Positions 524 through 5,848 of a stretch of 64,000 nucleotides of DNA are shown piece by piece (positions within the stretch are counted from its first letter, which is position 1; the number at the start of each line of letters is the position of its first letter). A program made the position numbers and the translations under genes. The stretch is taken from positions 434,001 through 498,000 of the forward strand of contig PLWS01000002.1 in assembly GCA_003151115.1 (NCBI GenBank), written 5' to 3'. The notes below the pieces were generated by a model. It had not been told where the DNA came from, did no database searches, and saw only the letters and a program-made list of their open reading frames with translations. This stretch comes from Vulcanimicrobiota bacterium. GTDB lineage: Bacteria > Vulcanimicrobiota > Vulcanimicrobiia > Vulcanimicrobiales > Vulcanimicrobiaceae.

Positions 524-1834
524 TTAATACAACCGCAAATACGCCCGGTGCTCCCACGGATGTACCGCTCGGCGGTAGCGTTCGTACTCGTCGAGCTTGG
601 CGTCGCGGAAAGCATGATAGATGTGATCGCCGAGCGCGGCGCGGATTACCGGATCGTTATCGAGTTCAGTGATCGCTTGGCGTAAAGATTTCGGAAGCGT
701 GCCGATGCCGCGTTCGTGCCGCTCGCGTTCGGCAAGTTCGTACGTCGAACCCGTGAGCGGGTCGCCGGGAAGGCGGTGCTGGTCGACCCCGTCCGCAAGT
801 GCGCCGAGTAATACCGCGAGCGACAGATACGGATTGCCGGCCGCATCGGGGCTGCGCATCTCAAGCTGCGGCGGATCTTGGCGCGGAACGCGCACGAGTG
901 CGTTCGCGCTGCGTTCGGACCACACGGTGTAGATCGGCGCATCCCATGCATTTACCAGACGCTTGTATGAATTCACGGTGGAATTGCAGACTGCGGTCAG
1001 CGCGCCGGCATGCGCGAGCAGGCCGCCGATCATGTAGAGAAGCTCCGGCTGCTGTTCGCTCGAGACGCGGAAGTTGACGTGCAAGCCGCTGCCCGCGCGA
1101 TCTTCGAGCGGCTTGGGCATGAACGTCGCTTCCAGTCCGCGAGCCGCGGCGACGTGTTTGGCGATCGAGCGCAGTGTGAGCAGCGCATCGGCGGCCGCCA
1201 GCGGATCGCTGTGGGGGAAATCGATCTCGTGCTGACCCGGACTGTGCTCGTGATGCGAGCTGGCCACGGCGACGCCCATCGCTTGCAGCGCCGCGACGAT
1301 CGCGCTGCGCGCGTCTTCGCCGCGATCGTTGGCGGAGAAATCGAAATATGAACCGACGTCGGCGGTCTTGGTCGAACCGTATTCGGAGTCGAGCGCTTCG
1401 AAAAGATAGAACTCGACTTCAAGTGCAACGGCGATCCCTGCCAACGGGCCTTTTGCCTCTTCGATCGCGCGCTTGAGCGTCGTGCGCGGGCAGCCTTCGA
1501 ACGGCGAACCGTCGGGCATCGCGATATCGCAGAGCAGTCGCGCTTCGGGCATCTCCGGCGTCGACCAAGGATAGAGCGCGAACGTTGAAGGGTCGGGGCG
1601 CAAGACCATATCGAGCTCTTCGCCGCGGACGAATCCATCGATCGAGCCGCCGTCAAAGGTCACTTTGCCTTCGAGCGCCGCTTCGAGTTCGGTCGCCGGA
1701 ATAGAAACGTTTTTGGCAACGCCGAGCACGTCGACGAACGACAGACGCACGAACTTGACGTTGCGTTCCTTGGCGAGACGCAAGACTTCGCGTTTGCCGG
1801 CGGCGCGCTTCGAGTCGCTAGGCGGTGAGTGCAT
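524..1834 (-). CDS. glnA: Glutamine synthetase family protein (type I, short form)
   Basis: The 436-residue protein matches the length of the GSI-alpha class, which makes glutamine from glutamate, ammonia and ATP. Visible motifs include the beta-grasp N-domain (about 25-95, with TFDGGSIDGF), metal-ligand EFYLFE (141-146), GQHEID (200-205), NSTVNSYKRL, the arginine-bearing RSANALVRVPR and LEMRSPDAAGNPYLS. The GSI-beta adenylylation tyrosine region is absent, as expected for this class. One oddity is GSGLHVN (248-254), where the usual second histidine is Asn, so a gamma-glutamyl-amine ligase activity cannot be excluded. The ATG start overlaps the 3' end of the PucR-type gene by 17 bases, which suggests translational coupling within the M-box-led operon. 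Confidence 0.85.
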   Translation of the reverse strand: MHSPPSDSKRAAGKREVLRLAKERNVKFVRLSFVDVLGVAKNVSIPATELEAALEGKVTFDGGSIDGFVRGEELDMVLRPDPSTFALYPWSTPEMPEARLLCDIAMPDGSPFEGCPRTTLKRAIEEAKGPLAGIAVALEVEFYLFEALDSEYGSTKTADVGSYFDFSANDRGEDARSAIVAALQAMGVAVASSHHEHSPGQHEIDFPHSDPLAAADALLTLRSIAKHVAAARGLEATFMPKPLEDRAGSGLHVNFRVSSEQQPELLYMIGGLLAHAGALTAVCNSTVNSYKRLVNAWDAPIYTVWSERSANALVRVPRQDPPQLEMRSPDAAGNPYLSLAVLLGALADGVDQHRLPGDPLTGSTYELAERERHERGIGTLPKSLRQAITELDNDPVIRAALGDHIYHAFRDAKLDEYERYRRAVHPWEHRAYLRLY

Positions 1835-2966
1835 CGATTGCGATCGCCATTCTCAGCGTGAGCTGGTCGTGTGGGTCGTCCAATTTGCAGCCGCAGATCT
1901 CGCCGATTTGGCGCAGGCGGTAGAAGACCGTGTGGCGGTGGACGTTTAATTCGGCAGCAGCGGTTTTGACATTTTCGCCGACCGAAAAATAGAGCCGCAG
2001 CGTTCGCTCGAGCTCCGTCGCGTGTTTTTCGTCGTAAGATCGCAGCGGTGCGAGAATGCGGCCCGCAAATTCGCGCATCGCGTCGGCGCCGCCGCCGGAA
2101 AGCAGCAGCGGGTAAGCGCCGAGCTCTTCGTAGACGCCGACGCGGCCGGGGCCGTAAAGGCGCCGCGCGATCGCAAACGCCGCTTCGGCCTGCGCGAGCG
2201 AACGGTGCAGATCCAAAACCGCCGTGCGCGTTCCCACTCCGCCGCTGATGCGAACGTCGAATTCTTTCTTTTGAAGGTTTCTTTGCAGCATCGTGGCCGC
2301 GGTGCGCGTGTTCGATGCGTCAACTTCACGTGAAGCCGGAACGAAAATGACCAGCGAACCGCTGCGTTCGAGCACGCCCGCATCTCCCTCCCCGCCGCGA
2401 AACGCATCGAGGGCCGCTGCGCGGAAAGCGCCGGGCTCGCCGGTCTCCGTTTCGAGTATGACCGCAACATAATGCGTCGCGACCGCGATGCCGCGCGATG
2501 CGGCATCGTCGCGCACCGCGACCGCATCGTGATAGGCCTGCGCGACGAGTTGCTCCCAAAATGTGCGGCGGCGTCCGGGCTGGGCGCCGGCCTCGCGTGC
2601 GAGTTCGACGGCAATCGCGCTTGCGGTCAGCCGGGCGGGATGTTCGAACGCATCGAGATCTCCGCCGCCGAAAATTGAAAGGCGACCCAAAGTCGTGCCG
2701 CCGCTGACGATGGCGATCGTGCGTCCCGCATGTCCGTTGCGCAGTTTCTGGAACTGCGCGGTCGCATTGTGTTCGAGCAGCGGCTGTACGCTGCTGGGCA
2801 TGCCGCTGCCGCCCGCGGCCGCGAGGTGCCGCCACTGAGCGTCTTCCACGAGCACGCCAAGGTTCGCGCGTTTAGCAAGGTGGCCGGCCAGCGCCTTGGC
2901 GCCGCCGCCGCCCGCTGCGATGCGCGCGAGATCTTCGGCAAATGCGACCAACTCGTCGGCCGTCAT
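1818..2966 (-). CDS. PucR/CdaR-type transcriptional regulator
   Basis: The 382-residue protein ends with the PucR C-terminal helix-turn-helix: TLRLYFSVGENVKTAAAELN, then VHRHTVFYRLRQI, then the closing DPHDQLTLRMAIAI. The middle third looks like a GGDEF-derived/GAF-like regulatory region, and the first 130 residues resemble the sensing domain common in CdaR-type activators. Such proteins activate catabolic or nitrogen genes in response to small molecules. It lies 21 bases after the Nramp-like gene and overlaps glnA, so control of glutamine or amine metabolism is the simplest inference. Ligand and operator are not visible. Confidence 0.8.
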   Translation of the reverse strand: MTADELVAFAEDLARIAAGGGGAKALAGHLAKRANLGVLVEDAQWRHLAAAGGSGMPSSVQPLLEHNATAQFQKLRNGHAGRTIAIVSGGTTLGRLSIFGGGDLDAFEHPARLTASAIAVELAREAGAQPGRRRTFWEQLVAQAYHDAVAVRDDAASRGIAVATHYVAVILETETGEPGAFRAAALDAFRGGEGDAGVLERSGSLVIFVPASREVDASNTRTAATMLQRNLQKKEFDVRISGGVGTRTAVLDLHRSLAQAEAAFAIARRLYGPGRVGVYEELGAYPLLLSGGGADAMREFAGRILAPLRSYDEKHATELERTLRLYFSVGENVKTAAAELNVHRHTVFYRLRQIGEICGCKLDDPHDQLTLRMAIAIDALTA

Positions 2967-2987: not shown

Positions 2988-4262
2988 CTAGGCCGTTCCG
3001 CCGAAGACTTGCGTTACCGCGTAATAAATGGAGAGTGCGCCGACCAGCGCGACCGTCGCCCAAGCGACCGCGTTGCCGAACCATCCGTTGGTGTGCCGGC
3101 CCATCACTCCGCGCTTGTTCACGATAATCAGCATTAGCACCAGCTCGGGCGGCAGCAAGATTCCCTGGGCGACCTGTGCATAAAAAATCAGATTGAGCAG
3201 CGGCAGATGCGGGATCAGGACAAGTGCTCCGCCGGCGATCAAGCCGACCGCAAACAGCGTGAAGAAGACGGGAGCTTCGGAAAACTTGCGGTCGAGCGCG
3301 GCTTCGAATCCGAATGCTTCGCAGATCACGTAACTCGTCGAGAGCGGCAAGACGGTTGCGGTGAAAAGTCCGGCGTTGAAGATGCCGAGTGCGAAGATGA
3401 TCGACGCGGCCGCGCCCGCAAGCGGGCGCAGCGCCACCGCATAATCGGCCGCTTGCAGCGGTGCGAAGTGAGCGCCATGGCGGTTGGCGGCAAAAATCGT
3501 CGCCGCGTTGGCGATGATCATGAAGCCGGCAATGGCGATCGCCAGAATCGATCCGCTGATCACGTCGGCGCGCGCGAGCGTGAGTTCTCGTTCGTCGGAG
3601 CCTTTCTCGACGACAGCAGACTGCAAGAAAAACTGCATATAGGGCGATATCGTCGTACCGATCAGCCCGACGACCATCACGAGATACGCGCGGTTGTTGA
3701 AATCAAAAGTCGGCACGAGCGTGCCGTGCGCAACGGAACCCCAGTTCGGATGCGCCAAAATCGCCGAGGCGATATAGCAGAAATAGATGAGCGAAAAACA
3801 GACGAACGCGCGGTCGATGCTCTTGCTGTTAAATCCAAAAACCAAGATCAGCACGATCAGCATTGCGACGGGTACGGCGATGAAGCGCGAGATGTGGAAA
3901 ATCTCCGACGCGGCGGCGATGCCCGCAAACTCGGTCGCCGTAATGACCAAGTTGATGGCAAAAAACGCGGCCATCGCAAAAAACGAGACGCGGACGCCGA
4001 AATTCTCGCGAATCAGCGCCGCCAGGCCTTTGCCGGTAACCGCCGCCATGCGCGTCGCCATTTCTTGCACGACGATAAGAGCCAGTGTGAGCGGTAAGAG
4101 CACCCACAGAATGCGGTAACCGAAGTGCGCGCCCGCTTGCGAATACGTTGTAATGCCGCCGACGTCGTTGCCCGCCGACGCGGTGATGAATCCGGGTCCC
4201 AGGACGGCGAAGAGCAGGAGGAGCGTACGCCAGCGGCTGCGCTTGCGAGCGTCGCGCGCCAC
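2988..4262 (-). CDS. Nramp-family divalent metal transporter with altered metal-site motifs, probably Mg2+
   Basis: The 424-residue protein has about 11 membrane segments and the Nramp fold signature GPGFITASAGNDVGG (22-36). The canonical DPGN of helix 1 reads DVGG here, keeping Asp33 but losing Pro and Asn. In helix 6 the canonical MPH reads SPY (206-208), removing the methionine that favours transition metals. Loss of these soft ligands, with the upstream M-box and the MgtE_N/CBS partner, suggests a member of the NRAMP-related magnesium transporters rather than MntH. The GTG start lies 3 bases after the partner's stop. Mg2+ selectivity is inference. Confidence 0.85.
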   Translation of the reverse strand: MARDARKRSRWRTLLLLFAVLGPGFITASAGNDVGGITTYSQAGAHFGYRILWVLLPLTLALIVVQEMATRMAAVTGKGLAALIRENFGVRVSFFAMAAFFAINLVITATEFAGIAAASEIFHISRFIAVPVAMLIVLILVFGFNSKSIDRAFVCFSLIYFCYIASAILAHPNWGSVAHGTLVPTFDFNNRAYLVMVVGLIGTTISPYMQFFLQSAVVEKGSDERELTLARADVISGSILAIAIAGFMIIANAATIFAANRHGAHFAPLQAADYAVALRPLAGAAASIIFALGIFNAGLFTATVLPLSTSYVICEAFGFEAALDRKFSEAPVFFTLFAVGLIAGGALVLIPHLPLLNLIFYAQVAQGILLPPELVLMLIIVNKRGVMGRHTNGWFGNAVAWATVALVGALSIYYAVTQVFGGTA

Positions 4263-4265
4263 AGC

Positions 4266-5561
4266 TTAGCCCTTTACCGTACGGCTCGTGCGCCGCGGCG
4301 GAGTGATGCGCGGAAGTTCTTTGGCGAGATCTTCGGGCATGATCGCGTCGATTGCGTCGTCGACCGTTACGATGCCGAGCATGTTTCCGTTGGGATCGAC
4401 GACGGGCACGGCAAGCAAGTCGTAACGCGCGATCGTCGCGGCAACGTCGCGAGCCTGCATCTCCGGCGGAACGGTCACGACGCCGGCCTCCATGATGCCC
4501 TCGATGACGGCGTCTTGCGGCGCCAGCAGCAATGCGCGAAGGGTCAGCACGCCCAGCAGCCGCTCATCTTTGTCGACGACGTACAGGTAGTAAATGAATT
4601 CCGACTCGGGCGCAATCTCGCGGATCTTGTGAATGGTCTGCTCGGCCGTCCGGTGCGGAAAAATCCAAACGTAGTCGGTCGTCATCAATCCGCCGGCCGT
4701 GTCGTCCTCGTACTTGACGAGTTCGCGCAGCTCACCCGCAGTGGACTGATTCATTTCCGCGAGCAACTCGCTCTGTTGATCTTCCGGGAGATCTCCCAAC
4801 AGATCGGCGGCGTCGTCGGAATCCATCTCTTCGATGATGTCGGCGGCGCGTTCGCGTCCGATGTCTTCGATAATCGCGCGCTGCTTTTCGGGCTCGAGAT
4901 GTTCGAGAGCGTCGGCTGCGGTTTCGTCGTCGAGCGAATGGATGACCGCCGCGGCTTCACGCGCGGAGAGATCGCTGATGACTTCGGCCAGTTCGCTCGG
5001 ATGCAGGCGCGTGAGTTTGCTCTCTTTGACCGCGAGCTGAATCTGCGACGGGTTCTTCTCGCGGATCGGCGCGACTGAATCCCACGCGATCATCGCGCGC
5101 GGCACGCGGCGGGAGACCCACGGAGTAAAGCGCTTGCCGAAACCGCGCAGGCCCAGGCGGCGCAGCAATCCGCCGACGCCGACGTCGGCCGCAACGACGC
5201 GCAGCTTACCGCCGGTATTGGCAATCTCGATATCGTTGATGCGCACGACTTTGCGGCCGTCGACGTCGACGATCTGTTTGTCGAGCAGATCGAGGACGAG
5301 ATACAGCGCCTCTTCGTCGGGCGGCGCGGCGATTTTCGGCGCGGCGTTGAGCGCGACGAACCCATCGGCATCGACATCCGAGACCGTGTCCATCGGGGCG
5401 AAGCGGGGACCTTGGCTGGTCTTGATGATCAGGCCGTCGACTTCGGGAAACGTCTGGTCGGGGTTGTTGACCAAAAAATCGGTGACTCTGCCGATCGGCA
5501 GCTCGTTCACGGTCGCTCGCCGTCCGACCAGCTCAGAGATAAATCCATCCTGGAAAGCCAT
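4266..5561 (-). CDS. PRC-barrel / MgtE N-domain / CBS-pair protein without a channel domain
   Basis: The 431-residue soluble protein has an N-terminal PRC-barrel-like half (about 1-180, GRRATVNELPIGRVTDF and DGLIIKTSQGPRF), then an MgtE_N superhelical domain (about 185-290, with LHPSELAEVISDLSAREAAA and repeated DDAADLLGDLPEDQ), then two CBS repeats (about 300-425). MgtE's own transmembrane pore is missing. In MgtE, the N and CBS domains sense intracellular Mg2+ and gate the pore. Here they are encoded just before the Nramp-like transporter and probably regulate it in trans. It is the first gene behind the M-box and its SD GGGAGG lies just before the ATG. Confidence 0.85.
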   Translation of the reverse strand: MAFQDGFISELVGRRATVNELPIGRVTDFLVNNPDQTFPEVDGLIIKTSQGPRFAPMDTVSDVDADGFVALNAAPKIAAPPDEEALYLVLDLLDKQIVDVDGRKVVRINDIEIANTGGKLRVVAADVGVGGLLRRLGLRGFGKRFTPWVSRRVPRAMIAWDSVAPIREKNPSQIQLAVKESKLTRLHPSELAEVISDLSAREAAAVIHSLDDETAADALEHLEPEKQRAIIEDIGRERAADIIEEMDSDDAADLLGDLPEDQQSELLAEMNQSTAGELRELVKYEDDTAGGLMTTDYVWIFPHRTAEQTIHKIREIAPESEFIYYLYVVDKDERLLGVLTLRALLLAPQDAVIEGIMEAGVVTVPPEMQARDVAATIARYDLLAVPVVDPNGNMLGIVTVDDAIDAIMPEDLAKELPRITPPRRTSRTVKG

Positions 5562-5679
5562 GTTGCACCTCCCTTCCGCGCATAATAAAACCGGTTCGCT
5601 GGGCGGCGACCGGTCGTGGCGTGGAACGGTTAGCGCGTTCTATACCCCAATCGCGTCTGCTTTGGCACCACGCGCCGTA

Positions 5680-5695
5680 AAGCCCGAAGGGGCTT
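5680..5695 (-). terminator. Hairpin directly after the M-box, possible expression platform
   Basis: On the minus strand AAGCCC and GGGCTT pair across a CTTC loop, followed by TTTACGG. The stem is 6 bp with only a three-base U run, so termination is uncertain. Its position immediately 3' of the aptamer is where an M-box expression platform would be expected. The remaining 5562-5679 leader to the gene start contains no other recognisable element. Confidence 0.4.
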
Positions 5696-5812
5696 AGCCG
5701 CATTAGACGACGCCTTAGGTCGGCGAAGTCTGGTCTACCCGCTTGGCGTCTCTCGACGTTTCCGGGCAGCGGCCTGTGTTTCGCGTGGACGCCTCACCTA
5801 GCGAGGTATCCT
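5696..5812 (-). ncRNA. M-box (ykoK-type) magnesium riboswitch
   Basis: Reading the minus strand, the conserved M-box blocks appear in order: CTAGGTGAGGC (complement of 5791-5801), CCGCTGCCCGGAAACGTCGA then GAGACGCCAA (about 5743-5772), CGGGTAGACCAGA, and CTAATGCGGC near 5697. GCCGC and GCGGC close the inner domain. M-boxes fold on binding Mg2+ and shut off Mg2+ transporter expression. The aptamer begins at the predicted transcription start and precedes the MgtE_N/CBS and Nramp-like genes, which agrees with a Mg2+ transport operon. The switching mechanism is not resolved. Confidence 0.88.
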
Positions 5813-5819
5813 TCTCTAT

Positions 5820-5848
5820 AGTATAGGTGCGCGGTCAACCCGGGGCAA
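5820..5848 (-). promoter_or_regulatory. Sigma70-type promoter of the M-box operon
   Basis: On the minus strand TTGCCC (complement of 5843-5848) and TATACT (complement of 5820-5825) are separated by exactly 17 bases. The predicted start, about 5812-5813, coincides with the 5' edge of the M-box aptamer. Confidence 0.65.

Follow-up and report, generated by a model that had tools for sequence, protein, structure and literature searches.

An M-box-led operon encoding a predicted stand-alone MgtE-like sensor and a predicted Nramp-related Mg2+ transporter in Eremiobacterota

The nrmT operon and its riboswitch leader

The window, the whole 64,000-nucleotide stretch of DNA analyzed here, comes from a soil bacterium of the Candidatus Eremiobacterota with a 2.56-Mb genome. 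On its minus strand lie, in this order, an M-box riboswitch, the gene for a PRC/MgtE_N/CBS protein (5561-4266), and the gene for an Nramp-fold transporter (4262-2988), which starts 3 bases past the stop codon of the preceding gene (Table 1). The preliminary description, covering 4266-5848, had already named an MgtE_N/CBS protein and an Nramp-like transporter, and the Pfam matches bear out both, the latter lying outside that span. The named record nearest to the transporter is that of the Candidatus Eremiobacterota bacterium isolate bin6B (L127, 95% identity). Downstream, a PucR/CdaR-like regulator gene and a glutamine-synthetase-like gene, which overlap each other (524-2966, minus strand), begin 21 bases past nrmT. 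The former is a possible read-through gene of the operon. Its neighborhood is shared throughout the genus and by some of the family, in part of which both genes stay close to the sensor gene even though nrmT lies elsewhere (L067, L091). We considered these two genes as members of the Mg2+ system and rejected them, as the case was one of synteny only and no functional link was found.

Table 1. Positions of the features of the nrmT locus within the window
Feature	Position	Strand	Basis
Sigma-70-like promoter TTGCCC-17-TATACT (function inferred)	5820..5848	-	Consensus scan, 9/12 matches
M-box (ykoK) Mg2+ riboswitch aptamer	5639..5812	-	RF00380, 131 bits, E 3.7e-29, full-length
Candidate antiterminator 5' arm GCGATTGG	5647..5654	-	Overlaps helix P1 3' strand (GGGGTAT, 5648-5642)
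Candidate intrinsic terminator CGACCGGTCGC...GCGAACCGG then TTTTATT	5584..5616	-	Stem and U-tract kept in relatives
Ribosome-binding site GGGAGG	5568..5573	-	Sequence
Stand-alone predicted Mg2+-sensor protein, 431 aa	4266..5561	-	Pfam MgtE_N/CBS/PRC; AlphaFold model; ligand alignment
NRMT (NrmT) Nramp-related Mg2+ transporter, 424 aa, GTG start	2988..4262	-	PF01566, 7qia match, tree
PucR/CdaR-like regulator	1818..2966	-	HTH_30, GGDEF_2; 21 bases after nrmT

An operon that joins an M-box, an MgtE fragment and NrmT was already published in 2014, and its finding here is a re-discovery. M-boxes led to the discovery of NrmT, which was added to the Mg2+ transporters as a fourth class; most members of the group adjoin a gene for a homologue of the MgtE cytosolic domain, a fragment that was speculated to give feedback regulation or to be a chaperone (Shin et al. 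2014, PMC4072509). In the Clostridium acetobutylicum Ca_c0685 operon and its relatives, too, an M-box leads the genes for an MgtE N-domain homologue and an Nramp-related Mg2+ transporter (PMC4072509). The window operon differs from these in its phylum, in its one 431-residue sensor with PRC-like domains, and in a TxxS motif in α6, and the Eremiobacterota differ in that the partnership holds even with the genes unlinked. Acidobacterium capsulatum ACP2976/ACP2977 likewise encodes an MgtE fragment followed by an NRMT-clade transporter, but this pair has no M-box, and its transporter is a Mn2+ transporter in Bacillus subtilis (PMC4072509). A literature search for later papers linking NRMT and MgtE turned up just Ramanadane et al. 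2022 (PMC8806188), in which the binding site and structure of EleNRMT were solved.

The proposal of a minus-strand M-box leader held up well. We assigned the leader to RF00380 on the basis of an Infernal score above the gathering cut-off (44 bits) over the full model (1-169), and no other M-box occurs in the genome. The predicted TTGCCC-17-TATACT promoter was also found at the aptamer edge, where it would start the RNA near 5813, one base ahead of the aptamer; the match to the consensus is modest, and the scan returned 3 promoter-like sites against the 1.6 expected in shuffles. The preliminary description made no mention of a terminator or an antiterminator, for both of which the leader holds candidates. 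Between the aptamer and the start codon lies a G+C-rich hairpin with a U-tract, kept with altered sequence in close and several farther relatives; it is a likely intrinsic terminator, and was not among the matches of a fixed-pattern scan. In the window and six close relatives, the upstream GCGATTGG is complementary over 8 nt to CCGGTCGC of the terminator 5' arm, with U.G to C-G changes in two members of this set. Shuffled sequences give 8 pairs 2-7% of the time, so this complementarity, weak on its own, is suggestive of an antiterminator. The layout fits a transcriptional OFF switch of the Bacillus ykoK leader kind, to which a translational effect may contribute.

Transporter and predicted sensor

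The transporter matches the Nramp family PF01566 over positions 1-356 of 357 with 289.8 bits, which places it in the SLC11/Nramp fold. Its nearest solved structure is EleNRMT from Eggerthella lenta (7qia; 320 bits, E 1.9e-94), followed at a distance by DraNramp (85 bits). In a tree of 85 Nramp proteins the window protein falls with EleNRMT in the NRMT clade, which a long branch with 100% support parts from the DPGN/AxxM proteins of the EcMntH/DraNramp type, including those of its own phylum; the fork with EleNRMT has 92% support and the NRMT clade without EleNRMT 97%. The protein therefore belongs to the known NRMT (NrmT) clade, and the clustering with Mn2+/Fe2+ Nramps that would have spoken against the preliminary description was not seen.

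The binding-site motifs are DVGG in α1 and TTISPY in α6, so that the Asn of DPGN and the Met of MPH are replaced. These substitutions had been described as a rewriting of the metal motifs, and they are indeed present, but they are a published hallmark of NRMTs rather than peculiar to this gene. Of the published signature, DxxG-TxxA/T (PMC8806188), the Asp, Gly, and Thr match, as they do in EleNRMT; the last position is Ser (TxxS) where EleNRMT has TxxA, and Ser is the rule at this position in most NRMTs of the phylum. The loss of the soft Met ligand had been offered as evidence for Mg2+, an argument that fails when taken alone: a triple mutant of EcoDMT given NRMT-like residues gained no Mg2+ transport and still moved Mn2+ (PMC8806188), and the A. 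capsulatum NrmT complements Mn2+ uptake (PMC4072509). Because of these two results the motif by itself is not proof of Mg2+ as substrate, for which the clade and the M-box are better arguments. Together, the sequence data support a Mg2+-controlled operon with an Nramp-fold Mg2+ importer.

Most bacteria use CorA or MgtE for Mg2+. In the window's genome neither CorA nor an MgtE pore domain over the cut-off was found, and the claim that the MgtE sensor domains are encoded apart from any pore is thus upheld. Of 60 relatives, 14 have CorA and none has an MgtE pore that passes the cut-off; Eremiobacterota seem to rely on NRMT in place of either. As the window's genome encodes one MgtA-type P-ATPase (TIGR01524, 616.7 bits against a cut-off of 610.75), NRMT need not be its only importer, and the idea of NRMT as sole Mg2+ importer was discarded. 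The same genome has a second Nramp (L111:2445-3785, plus strand; G000:C1) with the motifs DPSG/TTITP, directly after a thiC-like gene that has a TPP riboswitch upstream.

The 431-residue protein has Pfam matches to MgtE_N (93 bits) and CBS (70 bits), a weak match to the PRC barrel, and neither the MgtE pore domain (PF01769) nor any membrane domain. It is not an MgtE channel, because PF01769 is absent from both the protein and the genome. An AlphaFold model (48 homologues, pLDDT 81) consists of two PRC-like beta barrels, an MgtE_N superhelix, and a CBS pair, and the protein ends in a short basic tail. The best structural matches of the model are MgtE cytosolic domains (Z 21.9-23.9). In comparison with the MgtE cytosolic domain of Thermus thermophilus (TtMgtE; 2yvy, 2zy9, 5x9h), the sensor shares the MgtE_N and CBS fold and lacks the pore, the full plug helix, and an intact ATP site, and it has two extra PRC-like domains at the N-terminus.

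MgtE closes its pore through the plug-helix residues E258/D259, for which the alignment gave no clear counterpart in the sensor. By contrast, the six TtMgtE residues E59, D91, D95, D226, D247, and D250, whose roles as Mg2+ ligands have been described (PMC5882242), align with D217, D249, D253, D381, D402, and D405, all of them acidic, and Mg2+ sensing by the protein is plausible. Among the ATP-binding residues of MgtE (Y170, R187, D188, N203, and F227; PMC5529423), Y170 and R187 are kept, whereas D188 is changed to Ala, N203 to Glu, and F227 to Leu. With these three residues changed the sensor cannot work exactly as MgtE does, and a modulation by ATP of the MgtE kind is doubtful.

The MgtE-like fragments of Acidobacteriota within the L113-L192 set, most of them without an M-box, present a different picture. 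The Mg5 ligand pair is lost (Asn at 226; Ser, Ala, or Asn at 250), as it mostly is in the fragments of Acidobacteriota related to A. capsulatum, and Y170/R187 are lost as well. This loss may go with a role in Mn2+ rather than Mg2+ handling, in what is one clade. A general tie between the M-box and the Mg5 pair was rejected: the raw counts are strong but not significant on the tree, which offers 1-2 informative independent pairs and mainly splits Acidobacteriota from the rest.

Co-occurrence and other M-box-led genes

Among 107 Eremiobacterota genomes at least 85% complete, 87 have both the sensor and a classical NRMT, 19 have neither, one has only the sensor (G079, an assembly of about 290 contigs), and none has only the NRMT. 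A classical NRMT was counted at 37% identity or above, with the addition of one contig-end fragment (G027), and MgtE channels, in which the match covers only residues about 175-410 of a 450-480-residue frame, were left out. In 37 of the 87 genomes the two genes are not neighbors and lie at unlinked loci. The counts are inflated by kinship of the genomes, and the Fisher p of 4e-20 for co-occurrence ignores relatedness and is not to be taken literally. Four genomes with neither gene (G028, G049, G090, and G094) have near relatives, in the same genus or family, that hold both; as the genes are adjacent in these relatives at some loci, one deletion could explain the joint loss. Two of the four, G028 and G049, keep only other Nramps. 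G016 and G026 carry the sensor gene and nrmT at separate loci, each gene behind its own M-box.

A sensor match was present in 59 of the 60 relatives, two of these matches being weak and CBS-only. In a contig scan with one genome per species, 80 loci were recovered, mainly from Eremiobacterota and Acidobacteriota, with some from Firmicutes, Deltaproteobacteria, and Nitrospirae. The sensor gene adjoins or lies near nrmT in over half of them, no NRMT-MgtE_N fusion protein was found among them, and the M-box precedes the operon in Eremiobacterota, Firmicutes, and Deltaproteobacteria, but at just one locus in Acidobacteriota.

Three observations are new: the sensor and NRMT are kept or lost together phylum-wide, even when the genes are far apart; the sensor retains the six cytosolic Mg2+ ligands that MgtE has outside its plug helix, whereas the ATP site is kept in part; and two genomes carry a separate M-box on each gene. 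These observations support, rather than prove, an action of the sensor in trans on NRMT.

A census of 55 M-boxes (54 in relatives plus that of the window) showed that 22 lead a sensor-NRMT pair, one a sensor-NRMT pair plus a protein of no recognized kind, and 15 NRMT alone. Three lead the sensor alone, one of these being truncated where its contig stops, three the unrecognized protein alone, and five nothing recognized or a contig end. A second type of Nramp follows four further M-boxes by itself and two together with the unrecognized protein. This second type (L048:3003-4796, minus; L050:788-2440, plus; L066:1178-2830, plus; L068:372-2087, minus) is 550-600 residues in length, has long extensions at both termini and the motifs DAGA/TTVAP, and forms its own clade in the tree. 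Proteins of its size or type are kept in G028 and G049, from which the classical NRMT and the sensor are both absent.

The unrecognized protein, which in relatives lies directly behind M-boxes or as the second or third gene behind M-box NRMTs, belongs to an undescribed secreted family of about 630-710 residues with a signal-peptide-like start and a conserved end such as EQRIRY (L039:784-2829, plus; L063:833-2716, plus; L089:2737-4737, minus; L066:2863-4941, plus; L046:1716-3848, plus; L072:3138-5060, plus). It is present in 25 of the 60 relatives and absent from the window's genome. Searches against Pfam, NCBIfam, and the PDB gave no match, a single-sequence AlphaFold model was useless (pLDDT 31), a hydrophobic-alternation test gave no sign of beta strands, and none of 18 further loci with members of the family had an M-box upstream at the gathering score. 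The family is possibly an outer-membrane channel, and if so would be a Mg2+-controlled one.

A model for the operon and its alternatives

We consider it probable that the M-box controls an operon in which NRMT imports Mg2+ and the sensor slows or shuts NRMT at restored Mg2+. At high cellular Mg2+ the aptamer would fold, helix P1 would hold the GGGG strand, and the terminator would form, such that transcription would stop before the coding region; at low Mg2+ the antiterminator would let transcription proceed. NRMT would act, like EleNRMT, as a LeuT-fold carrier, importing Mg2+ in a probably largely hydrated form through a site in which the α1 Asp and the α6 Thr/Ser stand where Mn2+/Fe2+ Nramps have Asn and Met. 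The PRC/MgtE_N/CBS protein, soluble and probably dimeric, would read cytosolic Mg2+ through the acidic sites that close MgtE, and would slow or shut NRMT by direct contact once Mg2+ is restored. The riboswitch, the family memberships, the kept ligands, and the genome-wide pairing are seen in the data, and from them the direction of the switch, the Mg2+ substrate, and the inhibitory contact are inferred. The preliminary description had envisaged a two-component Mg2+ importer with MgtE-type sensors gating an Nramp-fold carrier. The Mg2+-controlled operon and the importer agree with our data, but an obligate pairing for transport does not agree with the Clostridium NRMTs, which take up Mg2+ without the MgtE fragment (PMC4072509). 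Gating, already speculated upon in 2014, remains plausible and is strengthened by the co-occurrence counts and the kept ligands. Our more specific proposal, that in Eremiobacterota the sensor serves the classical NRMT as an obligate Mg2+ gate acting in trans, kept when unlinked and given its own M-box when separated, is offered tentatively, at slightly worse than even chances.

It is less likely, but deserves serious weight, that in the same operon, with the same Mg2+ importer, the sensor serves as a Mg2+ chaperone or buffer, as an assembly or stability factor of NRMT, or as a regulator of some other process that must track Mg2+ status. Transport by the Clostridium NRMTs needs no fragment, co-expression of the fragment gave no improvement for the A. 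capsulatum transporter, and a chaperone was named as an alternative by Shin et al. (PMC4072509); the missing plug helix and the N-terminal PRC barrels, unusual for an MgtE-type gate, point the same way. Such roles are harder to reconcile with a sensor that is kept or lost with the classical NRMT, with its absence from the two genomes that have only other Nramps, which points to NRMT as the partner, and with the retention of the very ligands that drive Mg2+-dependent closure of MgtE.

The leader, for its part, might act mainly on translation, by sequestering GGGAGG, and not by termination. In the lowest-energy fold predicted for the expression platform of the window, this ribosome-binding site is indeed paired as well, and a Mycobacterium M-box is reported to have a translational platform (PMC12810186). 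We judge this unlikely, given that the hairpin and U-tract persist with changed sequence in relatives and that the pairing of the ribosome-binding site is not predicted in the relative L058. Least probable of all is a Mn2+/Fe2+ importer that happens to sit under an M-box. The Mn2+ transport by the A. capsulatum protein and by the EcoDMT mutant would fit it, as would the merely generic Nramp name that NCBIfam gives the window transporter. Against it stand the clade shared with EleNRMT, the M-box that precedes NRMT in many relatives and is regarded as the mark of Mg2+-specific members (Shin et al. 2014, PMC4072509), and the separate DPGN/AxxM Nramps that several relatives carry for Mn2+/Fe2+.

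What the MgtE-like fragment does next to NRMT has been a standing question since 2014. With the phylum-wide pairing, the kept Mg2+ ligands, and the altered ATP site, the question can now be put to a direct test, namely whether a detached MgtE sensor regulates a LeuT-fold Mg2+ carrier. If the sensor is indeed an obligate gate, it would represent a sensor module split off from its channel and teamed with a carrier of unrelated fold.
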